From an uncultured Lachnospiraceae bacterium (GTDB lineage Bacteria > Bacillota > Clostridia > Lachnospirales > Lachnospiraceae), in NCBI GenBank assembly GCA_902792005.1, contig CADAXW010000006.1:59612-123611 (forward strand): DNA of 64,000 nt, written 5' to 3'. Shown here in pieces: positions 4,150 through 32,097 of the stretch (its first letter is position 1; each line of letters begins with the position of its first letter). The position numbers and the translations under genes were made by a program. A model generated the notes under the pieces. The model was given only the letters and a program-made list of their open reading frames with translations. It ran no database searches and was not told the origin of the DNA.

Positions 4150-5541
4150 TCACTCTTTTACAATATTTCGGATCCAGACACCCTTCTTCAGGAGGATGTA
4201 TCCGATGATACATTTCAGAAGATCCGCTACATGCACCAGGGCAAAGATCCAGACCACGGAAATGTCGGTAAATCGGCTGAGTACGTAGGCCAGCGGAACC
4301 GAAACGGCCATCATGAACACGCTGTCAAACAGGAAGGTGATGATGGTCTTTCCACCGGAACGAAGGGCAAAATAGCTGCAGTGCAGGAAGGAATCCTTCA
4401 GCATGGCCACCGCCTGGACCATGATAAATGCAGTTGCGATCTCCCGCGCAGTATCATTGGTATTATAGATCTGGGGGAACAATCCTGAGGTCATGAACAT
4501 GATGCTGCCCGTGACCAGCGCACTGAGCATTCCGGCAACGATCAGCTTCCGGGTCCAGTCCTTTGCCTTCTCCAGCTCTCCTGCTCCCAGGGCCTGCCCC
4601 ACCAGAATGGCCACGGCATCTCCCATGGCGATAAATACGATATTGAACAGGTTATTGATGGTATTGGCGATGTTCTGTCCGGCTACCACATTTAACCCTC
4701 TGGTGCTGTAGGCCTGTGCCAGAAGGGCCACACCCACGGACCAGAGTGCCTCATTGATCAGGATCGGCATACCGGTGAGGAAGAACTTCTTAACAAGGTT
4801 CCATGGCACCCGAAGGGTACGGTACAAGCCCTGGAAGTACTTATGACTGTGCTTGTGCCGGATGCTCCAGATGATAACAATGAACATTTCCACATATCTG
4901 GAAAGCACGGTTGCGATAGCCGCACCGATGACGCCCAGCTTCGGGCATCCCAGCTTTCCGAAGATCAGCAGATAGTTGAAGATCAGGTTGACTATGACGG
5001 CCACAACACTGGCGAACATGGGAACCTTGGTCTGCCCGCACTCCCGCAGGGTGCTGGAATACATCATGCTCACAAAGATCGCCGGCAGCGAGATCAGGAT
5101 CACCTTCAGATAATCCTCGCCATACATCTGGGCAGCTGCCAGGTCTCCCCCGTCCTCGCTTCCGCTGAGGTAGCTTTCGATCAGGGCGGATCCGAAGATC
5201 AGCAGCACAACAATGGCTGCAATGGCGATGATCAGCCCCAGCCAGAACTTATAGCGAAATGTATGCCGGATGCCCTCGTCATCCTTGTATCCGTAGTATT
5301 GCGCCGTGAAGATCCCGACGCCGGACATGCCTCCGAACATGCAGAGGAAGTAGATAAAGATCAGATTATTTACGATGGCAACGCCGGACATCTGCTCCGT
5401 GCCGATCTGCCCCACCATGATGTTGTCCAGCAGGCTCACAAAGTTTGAGATTCCGTTCTGGATCACAATGGGGACGGCGATGCCAAGTACCATTTTATAA
5501 AAATTCTTGTCTCCAAAATAACGACTCTTCGTTATACTCAT
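4150..5541 (-). CDS. MATE family multidrug/cation antiporter
   Basis: 463 residues with about 12 membrane segments. The N-terminal half carries the MATE signature: AVPIVIQNGISNFVSLLDNI followed by the MVGQIG motif near residues 42-50. The length is normal for MATE proteins. The family exports cationic drugs or metabolites using a Na+ or H+ gradient. The start at 5541 has a GGAGTGA site, and the stop of the CDF gene is only 5 bases upstream, so the two exporters are co-transcribed at the distal end of the long operon. Substrate cannot be told from sequence. Confidence 0.93.
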   Translation of the reverse strand: MSITKSRYFGDKNFYKMVLGIAVPIVIQNGISNFVSLLDNIMVGQIGTEQMSGVAIVNNLIFIYFLCMFGGMSGVGIFTAQYYGYKDDEGIRHTFRYKFWLGLIIAIAAIVVLLIFGSALIESYLSGSEDGGDLAAAQMYGEDYLKVILISLPAIFVSMMYSSTLRECGQTKVPMFASVVAVIVNLIFNYLLIFGKLGCPKLGVIGAAIATVLSRYVEMFIVIIWSIRHKHSHKYFQGLYRTLRVPWNLVKKFFLTGMPILINEALWSVGVALLAQAYSTRGLNVVAGQNIANTINNLFNIVFIAMGDAVAILVGQALGAGELEKAKDWTRKLIVAGMLSALVTGSIMFMTSGLFPQIYNTNDTAREIATAFIMVQAVAMLKDSFLHCSYFALRSGGKTIITFLFDSVFMMAVSVPLAYVLSRFTDISVVWIFALVHVADLLKCIIGYILLKKGVWIRNIVKE

Positions 5542-5546
5542 TCAAA

Positions 5547-6503
5547 TCACTCCGTTCGATGACGGTGACTGACGTCCTGGACAGGGTTCACGTGAACCAT
5601 CACGTGTTTGATCTCGGGAAATGTATTTTCCAGTGCGTCATGCACTCGTTCTGCAATATCATGTGCCTCGGTCAGTGACATGGCTCCGTCCACACAGATC
5701 TCCAGATCCACGTAGATCCGGGGCCCGAACATGCGTGTCTGCAGCATGTCCACTCCCTCGACGCCCCTCTGTTCCAGGGCACATTTACGTAAATGTTCCT
5801 CCACGGCATCATCACAACGATGATCCACCATCTGGTCGATGGAATTACGGAACACATCATAGGCTACTTTAAAAATAAATATACAAATGATCAGACTGGC
5901 GATGGGCTCAAGGATGGGAAGTCCCATTCTGGCGCCGGCGATACCGATCAGGGCACCGACGGAGGAAAGGGCATCGCTTCTGTGATGCCAGGCCTCTGCC
6001 TCCAGTGCCGTGGAATGGATCCGCTTTGCAGCGGCTCTGGTATACCAGTACATGGCCTCTTTGCCGACAATGGATACACAGGCTGTGATCATGGCAAAGA
6101 CACCGGGGATCTCGATACCGTCGCTTCCGGAACGGATCTTCGCTACGGCGGACTGGCCGATCTCCCAGCCGGCAATGGCCAGGATCAGCGCCAGGATCAG
6201 GGCAGCCACGCACTCGAAGCGCTCATGGCCGTAAGGGTGATCCTTATCGGCGGAACGTCCGGACATGCGAACGCCGATGATGACGATAAAGCTGCTGAAC
6301 ACGTCGGATGCAGAATGCACGGCATCACTGATCATTGCTCCGGAATTTGCAAAGATACCGGCAAGCAGCTTGATCACCGTAAGGATGATATTGCCGATGA
6401 TGCTGACAACAGAAACCCTTGTGGCAACGCTGCGAAACTCCCGGGTGATATCTTCCCCGGAGGTGTTCTTCTGATTCAGTTCGCTGGTATTTATGCCTGC
6501 CAT
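5547..6503 (-). CDS. Cation diffusion facilitator (CDF) metal exporter
   Basis: 318 residues. I chose ATG 6503 with a GAAGG site 8 bases upstream; a GTG at 6512 overlaps that site and is less likely. The membrane domain contains the metal-binding pairs typical of the YiiP/FieF group: DAVHSASD in helix 2 and HRSDAL in helix 5. The C-terminal cytoplasmic domain (from about residue 210) holds the His/Asp-rich metallochaperone-like fold, with HDIAERVHDAL and HVMVHVNP. CDF proteins export Zn2+, Fe2+, Mn2+ or Cd2+ in exchange for protons; the exact metal is not resolvable here. It lies between rluD and the MATE gene. Confidence 0.93.
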   Translation of the reverse strand: MAGINTSELNQKNTSGEDITREFRSVATRVSVVSIIGNIILTVIKLLAGIFANSGAMISDAVHSASDVFSSFIVIIGVRMSGRSADKDHPYGHERFECVAALILALILAIAGWEIGQSAVAKIRSGSDGIEIPGVFAMITACVSIVGKEAMYWYTRAAAKRIHSTALEAEAWHHRSDALSSVGALIGIAGARMGLPILEPIASLIICIFIFKVAYDVFRNSIDQMVDHRCDDAVEEHLRKCALEQRGVEGVDMLQTRMFGPRIYVDLEICVDGAMSLTEAHDIAERVHDALENTFPEIKHVMVHVNPVQDVSHRHRTE

Positions 6504-6525
6504 ATCAATCACCTTCGTTCGTCTC

Positions 6526-7461
6526 TTAGTTTTGCAAATGGCGCAGAATCTTTGTAAAATGCGCCGGCAGCTCGCTTGTAAACTCCATCTCTTCTCCGGT
6601 CACCGGATGTATAAACCCGAGGGTCCCTGCATGCAGAAGCTGTCCTTCCAGGTTGAAGGGACATTTCCGGGGACCATAGACCGGATCTCCCAGGATGGGA
6701 TGATGCAGAGATGCCATATGAACCCGGATCTGGTGTGTCCGTCCGGTTTCCAGGATGCATCGGATCAGAGTAAACTCCTGTTTCAGTGCTTCCACCGGTT
6801 CATAATGTGTTACCGCCCGTCTTCCGCCCTGCTGGATGGAGATCCGTTTTCGATCCTTTGGATCCCGGGCCAGCGGTGCGTCCACGGTACCGCCCTCCTG
6901 GATCCGTCCGTGACAGATGGCGGTGTAGATCCGATGAATACTATGCTCCGCAAATTGAAGTGCCAGGCCTCTGTGTGCCTGGTCGGATTTGCAGACCACA
7001 AGAAGTCCGCTGGTATCTTTATCAATACGATGTACAATGCCCGGCCGCTGGACTCCGTTGATGGAGGAAAGCGAGTCTCCGCAGTGATACATCAGAGCGT
7101 TGACCAGGGTTCCTGAGTCATGTCCTGCAGCAGGATGAACCACCATGCCCTGGGGCTTGTTTACCACCAGCAGATGGGGATCCTCATAAAGGATCTCCAG
7201 AGGCAGATCCTCCGGCTGGATCTCGAGCTTTTCGGTCTCGGGGATCACGATATGGACGAAGTCCCCACATTTTGCCTGATAGGATGCCTTCACAGCCTTT
7301 TCATTCACGGATACAGCACTGCTTTTGATCAGCTGCTGCAGATAGCTTCTGGAATACTCCGGCAGACTTTCGGCCAGGTATTTATCCAGACGCATTCCCT
7401 CCTGCTCCGGCTCCGGTGTCAGCTCTATGAAATTGTGTGTCTCTTCCATCCGGGTATCCAT
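6526..7461 (-). CDS. rluD: RluD-type 23S rRNA pseudouridine synthase
   Basis: 311 residues with an AAAGG site 9 bases before ATG 7461. An N-terminal S4 RNA-binding domain (MRLDKYLAE..., about 20-75) is followed by the RluA-family catalytic domain with HRIDKDTSGLLV, whose Asp is the nucleophile, and the GRTHQIRVHM motif. The family isomerises uridines in 23S rRNA. It lies directly after lspA (18-base gap), the lspA-rluD pairing being common in Firmicutes. The assignment to RluD rather than another RluA paralogue rests on this context and the full-length S4 domain. Confidence 0.9.
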   Translation of the reverse strand: MDTRMEETHNFIELTPEPEQEGMRLDKYLAESLPEYSRSYLQQLIKSSAVSVNEKAVKASYQAKCGDFVHIVIPETEKLEIQPEDLPLEILYEDPHLLVVNKPQGMVVHPAAGHDSGTLVNALMYHCGDSLSSINGVQRPGIVHRIDKDTSGLLVVCKSDQAHRGLALQFAEHSIHRIYTAICHGRIQEGGTVDAPLARDPKDRKRISIQQGGRRAVTHYEPVEALKQEFTLIRCILETGRTHQIRVHMASLHHPILGDPVYGPRKCPFNLEGQLLHAGTLGFIHPVTGEEMEFTSELPAHFTKILRHLQN

Positions 7462-28084: not shown

Positions 28085-28594
28085 CTAACGATAAACAGGG
28101 ATAAACAGATATGCTCCGTAGGTGATCTTGTCCCCGTCCAGGTGATTGATGTTCTGTACTTCCTTGATAAATACATCATAATCCTGATAACGGGCACCGT
28201 ACTCCTCTGCCAGTGACCAAAGTGTATCACCGCTCTTTACACGGATACTGGTATAGTATTTCTCCTGTACGGTAGCAGCCTCAACGTCGGAGGGAGCATT
28301 CGAGCTTCCCATGAAAAGAACTGCTGCACCGATCAAAAGCAAGGCCAGACCTACAACGATCAGGGCAAAACGGGAGCCCAATCTGTTTCGAACTGTAGTT
28401 ACAGACCGGCCTCCGCGCCGAGTTGTGTGCCGGTCTGTATTTCGAACGGTATGCACCCCTGTCTTTTGTTCTGTCTTCTGAGCTGTCTTCTGTGCTGTCT
28501 TCTGTCCTGTATACTGTCTTGCAGCAGAATCTGCTGATCTTTGAACCGGATATAACTGAAGTCCTGTATTTGATACTCTTGCTGTTTCGTACAT
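28085..28594 (-). CDS. LysM-domain membrane protein, YneA-like SOS cell-division inhibitor
   Basis: 169 residues from ATG 28594, with GAGGAG 7 bases upstream. A cytoplasmic N-terminus with QKTAQKT repeats is followed by one membrane segment (about 75-97) and a C-terminal extracytoplasmic LysM domain (IRVKSGDTLWSLAEEYG...GAYLFIPV). The layout, one membrane pass plus LysM, is that of YneA, which delays division during DNA damage in Bacillus. The cytoplasmic part is longer than in Bacillus YneA. The promoter is overlapped by a near-consensus LexA box and a second box lies in the leader, strongly supporting SOS control. No lexA gene is seen in this window. Function as a division inhibitor is inferred. 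Confidence 0.8.
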   Translation of the reverse strand: MYETARVSNTGLQLYPVQRSADSAARQYTGQKTAQKTAQKTEQKTGVHTVRNTDRHTTRRGGRSVTTVRNRLGSRFALIVVGLALLLIGAAVLFMGSSNAPSDVEAATVQEKYYTSIRVKSGDTLWSLAEEYGARYQDYDVFIKEVQNINHLDGDKITYGAYLFIPVYR

Positions 28595-28607
28595 ATCATC
28601 ACTCCTC

Positions 28608-28621
28608 AAAACGTGTGTTCG
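28608..28621 (-). promoter_or_regulatory. Second candidate LexA (SOS) box in the leader of the LysM gene
   Basis: AAAACGTGTGTTCG fits the Bacillus LexA consensus CGAACRNRYGTTYG at 12 of 14 positions; the two mismatches are in the first two bases. It lies between the promoter and the start codon. Confidence 0.5.
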
Positions 28622-28635
28622 ATTACTGTGATAAT

Positions 28636-28664
28636 AATATACCAAACCTTTGTTCGAATGTCAA
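28636..28664 (-). promoter_or_regulatory. Strong sigma-A promoter of the LysM (yneA-like) gene
   Basis: On the minus strand a perfect TTGACA (28659-28664), a 17-base spacer and TATATT (28636-28641) precede the LysM gene by 42 bases. The spacer is occupied by a LexA box, so repression in the uninduced state is expected. Confidence 0.8.
28643..28656 (-). promoter_or_regulatory. LexA (SOS) box overlapping the promoter
   Basis: CGAACAAAGGTTTG on the minus strand matches the Gram-positive consensus CGAACRNRYGTTYG at 13 of 14 positions. It lies between the -35 and -10 elements, the expected place for a LexA operator. Confidence 0.75.
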
Positions 28665-28667
28665 TAG

Positions 28668-28701
28668 AAAACTCGAACATTTTTCAGGATGTTCGAGTTT
28701 T
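28668..28701. terminator. Perfect 13-bp hairpin terminator
   Basis: AAAACTCGAACAT (28668-28680) and ATGTTCGAGTTTT (28689-28701) pair perfectly around an 8-base loop. It lies just beyond the stop of the Hsp70/GrpE-like gene (minus strand) and upstream of the LysM promoter, so it most likely ends the former's transcript. Confidence 0.75.
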
Positions 28702-28738
28702 CGTTCGGTTCTGTATGATAATCGGTATGATAATCGGC

Positions 28739-30124
28739 TTAATTTGCAACAATGACCTGGGCAGTACGAAGGACCTTGCCCTGATACATATACCCGGCCT
28801 GCATTACCTGCTTCACGGTATTCTCCGGCAGGTCTCCGTCTGCCACATGGGCCACCGCATTCTGGAGGTTGAAATCAAAGGGCTCTCCCTCTCCTGTGAT
28901 ACGGACCACACCCTTTTGCTCCAGGATCTCCACTGCCTTCTGGTAGGACTGCAGGATCCCCCGGGCATACGGGTTCGTATCGTCCTCAGCATATTTCGCG
29001 GCATATTCCAGATTATCGATGATGGGAAGAATGCTCTCGATAAAATCGGTGATGCTTTCCTCCTTCCCCGTATTCGTTCCTTCGGATGCTTCGGTTCCGG
29101 AAAGAAGGAATCGGTAGCCGCTCTCCTTATCCTGAATAAATACCTTAACTCCCTCTTCTCCGGTCTCCAGACCGATACGTACCGGGCGCCTGCGGAATGC
29201 GGCGATCTTCTCTTCACCGGGATACCATTTTGCGACCGCCTGGAAACGATTCTTACGTTCCTCATATAAGATCACTGAGTCTCTTCCGCCTTCCGGCTCA
29301 GGAAAATGTTCCACGCTAAGGGAGGCTTCTCCGGAAGCCAGATCCGATGGAGCAAACCGGAGGATCTCCTGATCCACGGCGATCCCCAGGGGATATACGC
29401 TTACTGCATCCTTCAGCAAAAAGCCTTCCGCCACGGGACGCTTCTCCAGATTGCCACACAGGAAGCCGAGCCCCTGGATCAGAGTTCCGGAGTCCAGCAT
29501 CTTTACATCCACGCCGCTTCGTCCCACGCCTGCCGCTGCCGCCTGCTCAAAGGTCATTCCTGCATTAAAGCCGCCGGTAAAGAATACGGCATCCGGCATA
29601 TGTTCGAACAGAAGCTTCGGACCGGCCTTTCTCACATAATTCAGAACATTTTCATCCCCTGCCTGTTCTGTTACAAGGATGGTATCCAGGCGCCGGATCG
29701 TATCTCCCATTTCATAGCTGGCCGCGCTCACCCGGTCATCACTTGCAAAGGCGGAAATGATGGTAACCCCGTTTTCCACCCGGAATTCCTGATTTACATA
29801 GGTGGCAAGTGCAGCCGTTTCACGGAAGGTGCGTACTACATTTACGGAGCAGTTCTCTGCCATTTTCTGCAGCTGCTGTACCTCCGAAAGCCCCAGATCA
29901 TCCGGAACGGCAAGGACCACATCAAAGTCCCCCACTCCCATATTCTCCTGCATATGAGCCCGGATCTTTTCGAAGGCCAGGCGGAATGCATTTTCATCCT
30001 TCAGAACATTTGCATTTCGGATGGACATGGGAAGCTCCATGGCATCGGTGTATATGTTATAGTCATCGCAAATACAGATATTTGCTTTCTTATCCCAGAA
30101 ATGTACCCCAACTATATTCTTCAT
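28739..30124 (-). CDS. Degenerate Hsp70 ATPase-like protein fused to a GrpE domain
   Basis: 461 residues from ATG 30124 (AAGGAG 5 bases upstream; 4-base overlap with the nadE stop). Residues 1-250 follow the Hsp70 nucleotide-binding plan: DVVLAVPDDLGLSEVQQLQKMAE...RTFRETAALATYV mirrors the VPAYFN...INEPTAAALAYG region of DnaK, and FFTGGFNAGM...LIQGLGFLCGNL mirrors the VGGSTRIP...AIGAAIQGG region. But the first phosphate loop (DLGTT in DnaK) reads VHFWDKK, so ATP hydrolysis is doubtful. Residues 250-350 are beta-rich. Residues 360-461 are a clear GrpE head domain (ILPIIDNLEYA, GEPFDFNLQNAVA, NTVKQVMQAGY). GrpE normally is the separate nucleotide exchange factor of DnaK. The combination is unusual; a client- or DnaK-regulating role is my inference. 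Confidence 0.8.
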   Translation of the reverse strand: MKNIVGVHFWDKKANICICDDYNIYTDAMELPMSIRNANVLKDENAFRLAFEKIRAHMQENMGVGDFDVVLAVPDDLGLSEVQQLQKMAENCSVNVVRTFRETAALATYVNQEFRVENGVTIISAFASDDRVSAASYEMGDTIRRLDTILVTEQAGDENVLNYVRKAGPKLLFEHMPDAVFFTGGFNAGMTFEQAAAAGVGRSGVDVKMLDSGTLIQGLGFLCGNLEKRPVAEGFLLKDAVSVYPLGIAVDQEILRFAPSDLASGEASLSVEHFPEPEGGRDSVILYEERKNRFQAVAKWYPGEEKIAAFRRRPVRIGLETGEEGVKVFIQDKESGYRFLLSGTEASEGTNTGKEESITDFIESILPIIDNLEYAAKYAEDDTNPYARGILQSYQKAVEILEQKGVVRITGEGEPFDFNLQNAVAHVADGDLPENTVKQVMQAGYMYQGKVLRTAQVIVAN

Positions 30125-32097
30125 TTGCTCTCCTTCTCCAACATGGCAAGCCATTCTTTTACGGATGCGTCACTGGGCATCCTCCAGTCCCCTCTGGGAG
30201 ACATGGCCACGGAACCCACTTTTACGCCGTCCGGCATACAGCTGCGCTTGAACTGCTGTGAGAAGAAGCGCTTCGTAAACATGGTCTGCCACTTCATGAT
30301 CACGTCCGGTGTGTAGATATCCTTAAATGCGCGGTTTGCCAGGAAGTTGATCTTATCCGGCGCATATCCGTAACGAAGGGTATAGTACAGGAAGAAGTCA
30401 TGCAGCTCGTAGGGGCCCACACTGTCCTCCGTCTTCTGGGTGATCTGTCCGTTTTCATCCGGCGGAAGAAGCTCGGGACTGATGGGTGTGTCCAGGATGT
30501 CCCGGAGAACGCCAGTGCTCTTCGGGAAGATCTCCGTTTCTGCCACGGTGTCGATCATCCAGCGGACCAGAGTTTTTGGTATGCTTCCGTTCACCCCATA
30601 CATGGCCATCTGGTCTCCGTTGTAGGTGCACCAGCCGAGAGCAAGCTCAGACAGGTCACCGGTACCAACCACAAGGCCTCCATGCATGTTGGCATAATCC
30701 ATAAGGATCTGCGTCCGTTCTCTTGCCTGTGTATTCTCATAGGTAATGTCCTTTGTTTCACCGTCATGCCCCAGATCCGAAAGATGCTGGATGCAGGCAG
30801 CTTTTATATCGATGATCACCGGTTCGGTTCCGAGGCTTCGGATCAGCTCCAGGGAATTCTCGTAGGTTCGATTGGAGGTTCCGAAGGCCGGCATGGTAAT
30901 AGCGATGAGATCCGAAGCCGGACGGTTCATTTTCTGCAGAGCCTGGGCCGAAACCAGCAGGGCCAGCGTGGAATCCATACCACCGGAAACACCAACCACC
31001 GGTTTTCCGTTGGTCACCTGAAGACGTTTCACCAGACCGCCTACCTGCATTTCAAAGATGTCGCTGCAGCGTTCCTTCAGCTTGCTTTTTGTGCCGGGGA
31101 TGAAGGGATGCTTTCTGAGGGGACGAAGGGTTCCGTCACTTTCGGGAAGCTGGGGAGATGCTTCGGTCACCACACGGCTGCGGGCGGTAAGCCCCCGGTA
31201 ATGGTCTGCCGCATCACCGAAGGACTTCATTTTCATACGTTCACTGCGTAAAAGCTCCAGATCCAGGTCGGCATAGAGAACGCCTTCTTCCTCGATACAG
31301 CCGGAGCTTTCGGTAAGAAGGGTTCCATTCTCTGCGATCATGCCATGACCGGAGAATACCACATCCTGTGTGGATTCACCCGCACCTGCGGAAACATACA
31401 GATAATCACAGACCAGAGATGCAGAGGTCTGGGTCACAAGATTTCTTCGGTAGGCACGCTTTGCGATCAGCTCATTGGAGGCTGAGATATTTACGATGAG
31501 TTCAGCCCCGGCCAGTGCCATGACGGAGGACGGCGGGATGGGTGCCCAGAGATCCTCACAGATCTCCACACCGAATTTCAGTTTTCCGTCCAGGTCGTAG
31601 ATCAGATGACTTCCGATGGGAACACTGTAATCTTCTACATCCTCGTCATCATATGTGATCCCAAGCTCGCTGAGATAGATGTCTTTTACCGGAAGGGCAT
31701 CTGCACTGTTGAACCAGCGTTTCTCATAGAATTCATGATAGTTGGGAAGGAAGGTCTTTACCGTAACGCCCATCAGCTTTCCGTCCAGCATGACATAGGC
31801 CGCGTTATACAGCTGACCGAGAACGAGTGCCGGCGCACCGACAATAACTGCGGATTCATGTCCGGAGGTTGCGGAAAGGATCCTGGAAAGTCCCTCTCCT
31901 GCGGCCCGGATCAGTGCCTGCTGGAAAAAAAGATCCTGACAGCTGTAGCCGGTGACTGCAAGCTCCGGAAATGCGATGACCGCCACATTTTCCTGATATG
32001 CGTCCTCCAGCTTCTTCAGAATCTCATCTACGTTATAGGATGCATCCGCAACCATAACCTTTGGGCAGATCGCTGCCACACGATAAAAATCAAACAT
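30121..32097 (-). CDS. nadE: Glutamine-dependent NAD+ synthetase
   Basis: 658 residues. The N-terminal nitrilase-type amidase has its Glu-Lys-Cys triad in FPELAVTGYSCQD, KTFLPNYHEFYE and VEICEDLW. The C-terminal synthetase has the SGGMDSTLALLVS PP-loop, and the GDLSELALGWCTYNGDQM segment. It makes NAD+ from nicotinate adenine dinucleotide, ATP and glutamine-derived ammonia. GGGGG lies 7 bases before ATG 32097. It overlaps the Hsp70/GrpE-like gene by 4 bases. Confidence 0.96.
   Translation of the reverse strand: MFDFYRVAAICPKVMVADASYNVDEILKKLEDAYQENVAVIAFPELAVTGYSCQDLFFQQALIRAAGEGLSRILSATSGHESAVIVGAPALVLGQLYNAAYVMLDGKLMGVTVKTFLPNYHEFYEKRWFNSADALPVKDIYLSELGITYDDEDVEDYSVPIGSHLIYDLDGKLKFGVEICEDLWAPIPPSSVMALAGAELIVNISASNELIAKRAYRRNLVTQTSASLVCDYLYVSAGAGESTQDVVFSGHGMIAENGTLLTESSGCIEEEGVLYADLDLELLRSERMKMKSFGDAADHYRGLTARSRVVTEASPQLPESDGTLRPLRKHPFIPGTKSKLKERCSDIFEMQVGGLVKRLQVTNGKPVVGVSGGMDSTLALLVSAQALQKMNRPASDLIAITMPAFGTSNRTYENSLELIRSLGTEPVIIDIKAACIQHLSDLGHDGETKDITYENTQARERTQILMDYANMHGGLVVGTGDLSELALGWCTYNGDQMAMYGVNGSIPKTLVRWMIDTVAETEIFPKSTGVLRDILDTPISPELLPPDENGQITQKTEDSVGPYELHDFFLYYTLRYGYAPDKINFLANRAFKDIYTPDVIMKWQTMFTKRFFSQQFKRSCMPDGVKVGSVAMSPRGDWRMPSDASVKEWLAMLEKESK

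Follow-up and report, generated by a model that had tools for sequence, protein, structure and literature searches.

A predicted pseudo-Hsp70-GrpE fusion protein in one genus of Lachnospiraceae

Related systems and the fusion gene

Pseudo-enzymes that have turned into regulators are well known for kinases. Among the Hsp70s, the clear case is the eukaryotic Hsp110, and a passage of PMC12305717 states that the evolutionary steps from Hsp70 to the Hsp110 exchange factor 'remain unsolved'. The holdase role of Hsp110 is disputed, one section of that paper being headed 'Sse1 by itself cannot prevent MlucV aggregation' (PMC12305717). For GrpE, the passages on DnaK contacts place its wing and short helices on IB and IIB of DnaK (PMC10803776, PMC10825016), and its stalk on IA, the linker and the SBD (PMC10803776, PMC10825016, PMC12915176, PMC12987570). 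Gly122 of E. coli GrpE is needed for the interaction with DnaK, according to passages of PMC10825016 and PMC12915176. In the mutant section of PMC10803776, DnaK binding, exchange and viability all required a stalk patch of Mtb GrpE (Mut-1), whereas patches in the helix and the wing (Mut-2 and Mut-3) were dispensable for viability and binding, although Mut-2 lowered the exchange rate and modestly reduced refolding. The long IIB hairpin goes with GrpE use and the shorter type with other Hsp70 subfamilies, as stated in a part of PMC10825016.

We analyzed a 64,000-nucleotide stretch of an uncultured Lachnospiraceae genome (contig CADAXW010000006.1), referred to here as the window. The gene at 28739..30124 on the minus strand encodes a protein of 461 residues (ORF plus stop; 35 distinct members aligned) that joins a pseudo-Hsp70 to a GrpE head. 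Like GrpE (PF01025), its C-terminal head has short dimer helices, a beta-wing and the counterpart of Gly122; unlike GrpE, it carries a 343-residue pseudo-Hsp70 instead of the disordered tail and coiled-coil stalk, and its gene does not lie beside dnaK and is additional to the grpE of the operon. The order and fold of DnaK and other Hsp70s (PF00012) are followed in an actin-like core, a linker region and an SBD-beta-like domain, but the fusion is without DLGTT, IB and the lid, has little or no IIB and is missed by the Pfam model. The comparison with Hsp110/Grp170 (Sse1) holds for the idea only, that of an Hsp70 relative as would-be exchange factor and possibly holdase (parts of PMC12987570 and PMC12305717). 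In Hsp110 the NBD is kept and the Hsp70 body itself does the exchange, whereas the exchange module of the fusion would be the GrpE head, so the fusion resembles Hsp110 in a logic reached by gene fusion, with no common descent implied. Another atypical Hsp70 that acts as a helper is Ssz1 of the ribosome-associated complex (Foldseek matches 6sr6, 7x3k and 5mb9), but it pairs with a J-protein in the account given in part of PMC8476630 and has no GrpE part. A literature search, with subscription papers mostly outside its scope, yielded no described Hsp70-GrpE fusion or degenerate bacterial Hsp70, and the words 'fusion' and 'fused' are absent from a 2025 GrpE review. Both building blocks are known, but neither their combination nor an Hsp70 core so trimmed and apparently ATP-dead appears in the literature searched. 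Because the Pfam annotation of the fusion reads 'GrpE' alone, such proteins are easily overlooked.

The frame opens with an ATG at 30124 and its stop ends at 28739, with all parts described below on the same minus strand. A mechanical ORF list opens it 10 codons earlier (ATG at 30154, 471 residues); we favour the start at 30124, as the starts of the relatives indicate. This start overlaps the stop of the upstream nadE, identified by Pfam, in an ATGA (30121..30124). In a neighbour count over 56 loci, several with short flanks, nadE adjoined the fusion in nine (five other genomes), and the order nadE-fusion-LysM gene-miaB was confined to this clade near the window, with an extra stretch in AC2029. 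In 15 other loci that we read, the fusion stood beside unrelated, differing genes, and no neighbour gene was conserved across the genus. We therefore dropped guilt-by-association within an operon as a guide to its function. Promoter and terminator scans did no better than shuffles, and an Rfam scan of 20000-52000 returned a tmRNA and one tRNA and nothing else. The LysM-domain gene that comes after the fusion (window 28085-28645, minus strand), which we take to be YneA-like, is separated from it by several GTTCG/CGAAC repeats (28613-28710) that by eye have the look of LexA-type boxes.

Domains of the fusion

The identity of the C-terminal part as GrpE is certain from its profile match. Pfam GrpE matched residues 353-460 to profile positions 55-164 of 165 at E 3e-28, passing the cut-off, which bears out the head that a sequence-only reading of this DNA had placed at 360-461; we delimit it to residues 358-461 (28742..29053), with short dimer helices and a beta-wing, the most conserved part of the protein. 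In NCBIfam, the 25 listed of 26 matches were GrpE models, each under its own equivalog cut-off. Profile positions 1-54 were unmatched, indicating that the head alone is present, without the coiled-coil stalk and disordered N-terminal tail; in their place is a variable linker (residues 344-357, 29054..29095; mean identity 0.20), and the low-confidence predicted model has no long helix just before residue 358. The earlier reading of a GrpE-type domain needs correcting in that the stalk, which Mtb GrpE needs for DnaK binding (PMC10803776), is absent. Gly389 (28958..28960) is taken as the counterpart of E. coli GrpE Gly122. Its column held Gly in 35/35 fusions, 9/9 GrpEs of the genus and 11/11 GrpEs of other genera. 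We read the equivalence from the equal 16-residue spacing to the next Gly-Val in the fusion, the GrpE of the same genome and 1dkg; the HMMER alignment sets its gap beside Gly389. The member from genome G013 (L054, G013:C10:19000-31000; fusion 5232-6830, minus strand) has about 50 Ser/Gly/Thr/Ala-rich residues inserted between the two short helices of the head.

Profile intermediates and predicted models indicate that residues 1-343 derive from an Hsp70, as a trimmed ATPase core followed by a beta substrate-domain-like part, and we consider the pseudo-Hsp70-GrpE architecture as such highly probable. Pfam HSP70 gave no match at E up to 10 to the window protein or to any of 21 N-termini of the family; a PDB profile search with the fusion returned no Hsp70 chain, and an NCBIfam search gave no direct Hsp70 detection. 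Aligned directly with a profile of 32 Hsp70s of the genus, the fusion was collinear over 279 columns and scored 32.9, against a mean of 16 and a maximum of 31.9 for 160 decoys (probability 12%); an earlier profile comparison with three Hsp70s had given a probability of 4%. As the direct alignment taken alone is borderline, the homology rests on intermediates and models. The fusion N-terminus aligned with the standalone pseudo-Hsp70s of the genus (described below) at a profile-profile E of 3e-9 and a score of 71.7, with 160 shuffled-column decoys scoring at most 23.5, and the standalone forms aligned with true Hsp70s at E 1e-12, a pair run without decoys.

AlphaFold2 models built from five sequences reached low-to-medium confidence, with a pLDDT of 46 for the full length and, for residues 1-348, a pLDDT of 60.5 and a pTM of 0.58 (block means 61-91 over residues 1-100, under 50 over 106-239 and 74-91 over 241-340). 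Foldseek against the PDB gave 52 matches for the full-length model and 84 for the 1-348 model at E <= 1e-3, the best E being 1.4e-8 and 1.4e-7, and the query-normalised TM-scores were low to moderate (at most 0.30 and 0.52). Among the 50 matches listed per model, 48 were titled Hsp70, Hsp110, BiP, Ssz1/RAC or complexes containing them, Sse1 among them. The titles of the other two, 7sqc_Z0 and 7n6g_6K, name a ciliary complex only, which presumably includes an Hsp70. The structure prediction proposed in the sequence-only reading as a check on the N-terminal part therefore came out Hsp70-like by Foldseek.

The pseudo-NBD (residues 1-238, 29411..30124) would comprise the actin/Hsp70 core (IA and IIA) with IB and IIB deleted, as judged from alignment, model and Foldseek, so that an Hsp70-type NBD is present in part only; residues 3-113 were modelled as three strands followed by alternating helices and strands. 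The deletions were delimited in the standalone form. Compared with the DnaK of the window's genome, two segments are missing from it, one of about 47 residues that lies after the phosphate loop and before residue 94, and one of about 72 residues at 193-205 and 219-277; by the usual domain limits we take these to be IB and IIB, respectively. The fusion is collinear with this form, no gap exceeding six residues, and shares both losses. The DLGTT phosphate loop is replaced by the motif IVGVHFW (residues 4-10, 30095..30115; alignment of 35 members); the loop reads VGVHFWD, HFW and two further residues standing for DLGTT. His8 occupies the Asp position in 35/35 members, F or Y follows at residue 9 in 35/35, and W10 is found in 32/35, consistent with the loss of DLGTT noted earlier. 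The ATP loop was intact in 0/35 family members, contrary to the intact ATP site in close homologues that the sequence-only reading had named as grounds for rejecting it, and ATP binding and hydrolysis are predicted to be absent. Outside the head, D75, G78, E102, A107, G184, G218 and E288 were also invariant in 35/35; of the invariant non-head residues checked, E288 alone lies in the SBD part and the others, including H8, in the pseudo-NBD.

The predicted SBD-beta-like domain (residues 239-343, 29096..29410) has eight predicted strands and no lid in the models, and aligns to about residues 365-475 of DnaK. The fusion follows the order of actin-like core and then SBD-beta, according to the profile intermediates and the medium-confidence models, and further support comes from a related fusion, L043, whose SBD part is matched by Pfam HSP70. 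The earlier description, a degenerate Hsp70 ATPase domain fused to GrpE, thus stands for the architecture and is too narrow for the Hsp70 part, which is not an ATPase domain alone and continues as SBD-beta-like sequence to about residue 343.

Distribution, conservation and relatives in the genus

The first search covered 61 genomes, 37 of the genus and 24 of other families of the order, and found the whole fusion in 23, all in the genus (22 full-length, and G013 with its insertion). Identity to the window fusion was 31-67% outside its own genome, with full-length retention down to 33%. A profile of the N-terminal 344 residues (21 rows, from strongly matching genomes) matched 40 of 61 genomes of the genus. 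The match was strong in 37 (416-525 bits), whereas G017, G035 and G575 gave only weak matches, in shorter proteins. The fusion is therefore counted in 37/61 genus genomes and was not found in 24/61. With the count restricted to genomes of at least 90% completeness and no more than 5% contamination, 21 of 31 matched the profile, one of them (G017) weakly; since it was not found in part of these near-complete genomes, the fusion is dispensable. Beyond the genus, the profile found the window's own genome alone among 250 genomes of the family (249 genera; 0/248 other genera, one genome each) and alone among 398 genomes of the phylum. GrpE-head matches listed outside the genus in the 250 family genomes were frames of 152-360 residues, with none of fusion size among the matches listed. 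The order-wide GrpE search listed the strongest matches only, and truncated-head fusions elsewhere may escape it. A contig search returned four named records, one of strain AC2029 and three of uncultured Lachnospiraceae, which are the same DNA as the loci of G582, G025, G011 and G002.

Conservation was measured over the 35 distinct aligned members (461-515 residues). Mean pairwise identity was 0.70 in the GrpE head, 0.41 in the pseudo-NBD, 0.30 in the SBD-like part (minimum 0.11) and lowest in the linker. Values of dN/dS were 0.00-0.21 in the NBD, SBD and GrpE parts (8 of 595 pairs were close enough and unsaturated), no internal stop occurred in any of 37 fusion rows, and the gene is under purifying selection. 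Fusion distances tracked DnaK distances (r 0.65, 0/2000 permutations, n=14 genomes with both proteins), which suggests mainly vertical inheritance; horizontal spread was set aside on the same grounds. None of the 55 records returned by a plasmid search reached 80% coverage of the query, and the 8 shown cover at most 43%. In a tree of heads, those of the fusion grouped as a single clade (ultrafast bootstrap 75), and L043 was the next to join it (83). The host genus is a gut-type Lachnospiraceae, in which the fusion is a conserved extra gene.

Several relatives of the fusion occur in the genus. Standalone pseudo-Hsp70s of about 352 residues, without GrpE and with SBD-beta kept, are present in genus genomes with and without the fusion, and their loop reads DLTGD, DFSGD or DFTGD instead of DLGTT. 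Six were delimited: L116 (3734-4789, minus strand), L117 (5979-7043, plus), L118 (4529-5692, minus), L119 (1246-2304, minus), L120 (3679-4752, minus) and L048 (4987-6099, minus), the last in the genome of AC2029. Pfam HSP70 matched five of the six at 2e-9 to 2e-4, four above the curated cut-off and L118 just under it; L116 had no match. L043 is a second fusion in the genome of AC2029, with GrpE at 1e-21, HSP70 at 8e-6 over the substrate-domain part and a match to the fusion profile at 3.5e-33. The longer fusions L044 (711-2771, plus strand) and L045 (3937-5961, plus strand), of 674-686 residues, carry a GrpE head and a long acidic linker; their N-terminus has diverged in a different way, is Hsp70-like by eye and has no Pfam HSP70 match. 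Their heads pair (100) outside the main fusion clade, and this type was found in 2/61 genus genomes, both without the main fusion. One genus genome has two adjoining Hsp70-type frames of 545 and 719 residues (G564:C23:58921-62091, plus strand).

The check for a separate operon, also proposed in the sequence-only reading, located an intact hrcA-grpE-dnaK-dnaJ in the window's genome on another contig than the fusion. Two GrpE domains were found in this genome, that of the operon and that of the fusion. A further GrpE was present in 15 of the 23 fusion-bearing genomes of the first search, the remaining eight being 58-87% complete, and in 13/13 of those at least 88% complete, although in G016 it is just a 50-residue piece. 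The IIB hairpin of DnaK is six residues longer than in the two other Hsp70s of the genome in a sequence alignment, where the placing of the gap in this hairpin is our own mapping.

Candidate roles of the fusion

A putative role as DnaK regulator or holdase, as first suggested for this protein, is plausible. To call the GrpE domain the protein's own exchange factor is misleading, since with IB and IIB gone the pseudo-NBD offers little of the usual docking surface. Because these are the subdomains where GrpE contacts DnaK, the target of the head should be another Hsp70, on which it probably acts, and action in trans on DnaK would be the most economical reading. Our leading proposal, which we hold tentatively and at somewhat below an even chance, is that the fusion serves the DnaK of the same cell as a nucleotide-independent co-chaperone, engaging and opening it. 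The head, in which the Gly122 counterpart and much of the wing are invariant, would pair into a dimer, dock on the NBD of DnaK and loosen the cleft or hold it open. Two bulky pseudo-Hsp70 bodies would then be presented where the stalk and tail of GrpE would touch the DnaK linker and SBD; there they could take up the client on its release, use the conserved HFW surface to bring in a partner, or make the DnaK-client complex bulkier. The points in favour are the GrpE match of the head, the Hsp70 origin of the rest, the loss of IB and IIB, the head identity of 0.70, the Gly122 counterpart in 35/35 members, the low dN/dS, the canonical operon with the further GrpE in most fusion-bearing genomes and the long IIB hairpin of DnaK. 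The missing stalk is the main counter-evidence: given the need of Mtb GrpE for its stalk, the fusion might bind DnaK weakly or not at all, and it may exchange poorly and work rather as an adaptor. The SBD-like part, as the least conserved domain, gives no impression of a maintained peptide groove. The disputed holdase role of Hsp110, the differing gene neighbours and the dispensability of the fusion also count against the proposal.

A bolder form of the proposal, which we regard as doubtful, would make the fusion the bacterial equivalent of Hsp110. In this view an Hsp70 relative gave up its nucleotide machinery, took a GrpE head in place of its lid and so turned into a DnaK exchange factor and client catcher, a single invention in one Lachnospiraceae genus, next to core-only pseudo-Hsp70s that radiated more widely. 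If true, this would be an independent bacterial route from Hsp70 to exchange factor, with graded relatives in living species, namely standalone pseudo-Hsp70s, fusions with a short linker and fusions with a long acidic one. It would also put to the GrpE field the question of whether a GrpE head can work without the stalk that Mtb GrpE needs in the part of PMC10803776 concerned.

The absent stalk feeds the strongest alternative, that the head is a dimer and DnaK-docking module without productive exchange, through which the fusion would act as a competitor of GrpE or deliver DnaK to a specific partner selected by the conserved pseudo-NBD surface. The loss of exchange and binding in the Mtb stalk mutant (described in part of PMC10803776) and the position of most checked invariant non-head residues in the pseudo-NBD agree with such an adaptor or inhibitor. 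However, drift of the wing and the Gly122 counterpart would be expected if exchange had been lost, and both are highly conserved; nor do the neighbours, which differ among loci, point to a partner. We consider this alternative rather unlikely, though a serious candidate.

An intramolecular action of the head, or one on the pseudo-Hsp70 moiety of another copy, would make a self-contained or autoinhibited unit. This reading is prompted by the covalent fusion of the two partners and by the related fusions L043 and L044/L045, but the pseudo-NBD has IB and most of IIB, the contact surfaces of GrpE, deleted and offers no recognisable nucleotide site to empty, and we find this improbable. We give similarly little credence to a role of the fusion in nucleotide exchange on the genus's other Hsp70s, those encoded beside J-domain-TPR proteins. 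The genome has two such Hsp70s against only two GrpE domains found there; yet their IIB hairpin is six residues shorter than that of DnaK, a type tied to other subfamilies in a part of PMC10825016, and Hsp70 matches of similar score occur in genomes without the fusion. A decaying chimera without function, as the lost ATP loop, the poorly conserved SBD-like part and the 24/61 genomes in which the fusion was not found might suggest, is strongly disfavoured and very improbable, in view of the dN/dS of 0.00-0.21, the 37 rows without an internal stop, the invariant His in the former phosphate loop and the genus-wide retention down to 33% full-length identity.

The two extra Hsp70s of the window's genome lie on its contigs C2 and C4 (L049, 2968-8345, and L050, 3429-8190, both on the plus strand). 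Each overlaps the end of a protein of 1025-1230 residues that has a J-like N-terminus followed by many TPR repeats, and the DnaJ match of these J-like N-termini had an E of about 2e-5, just below the cut-off.
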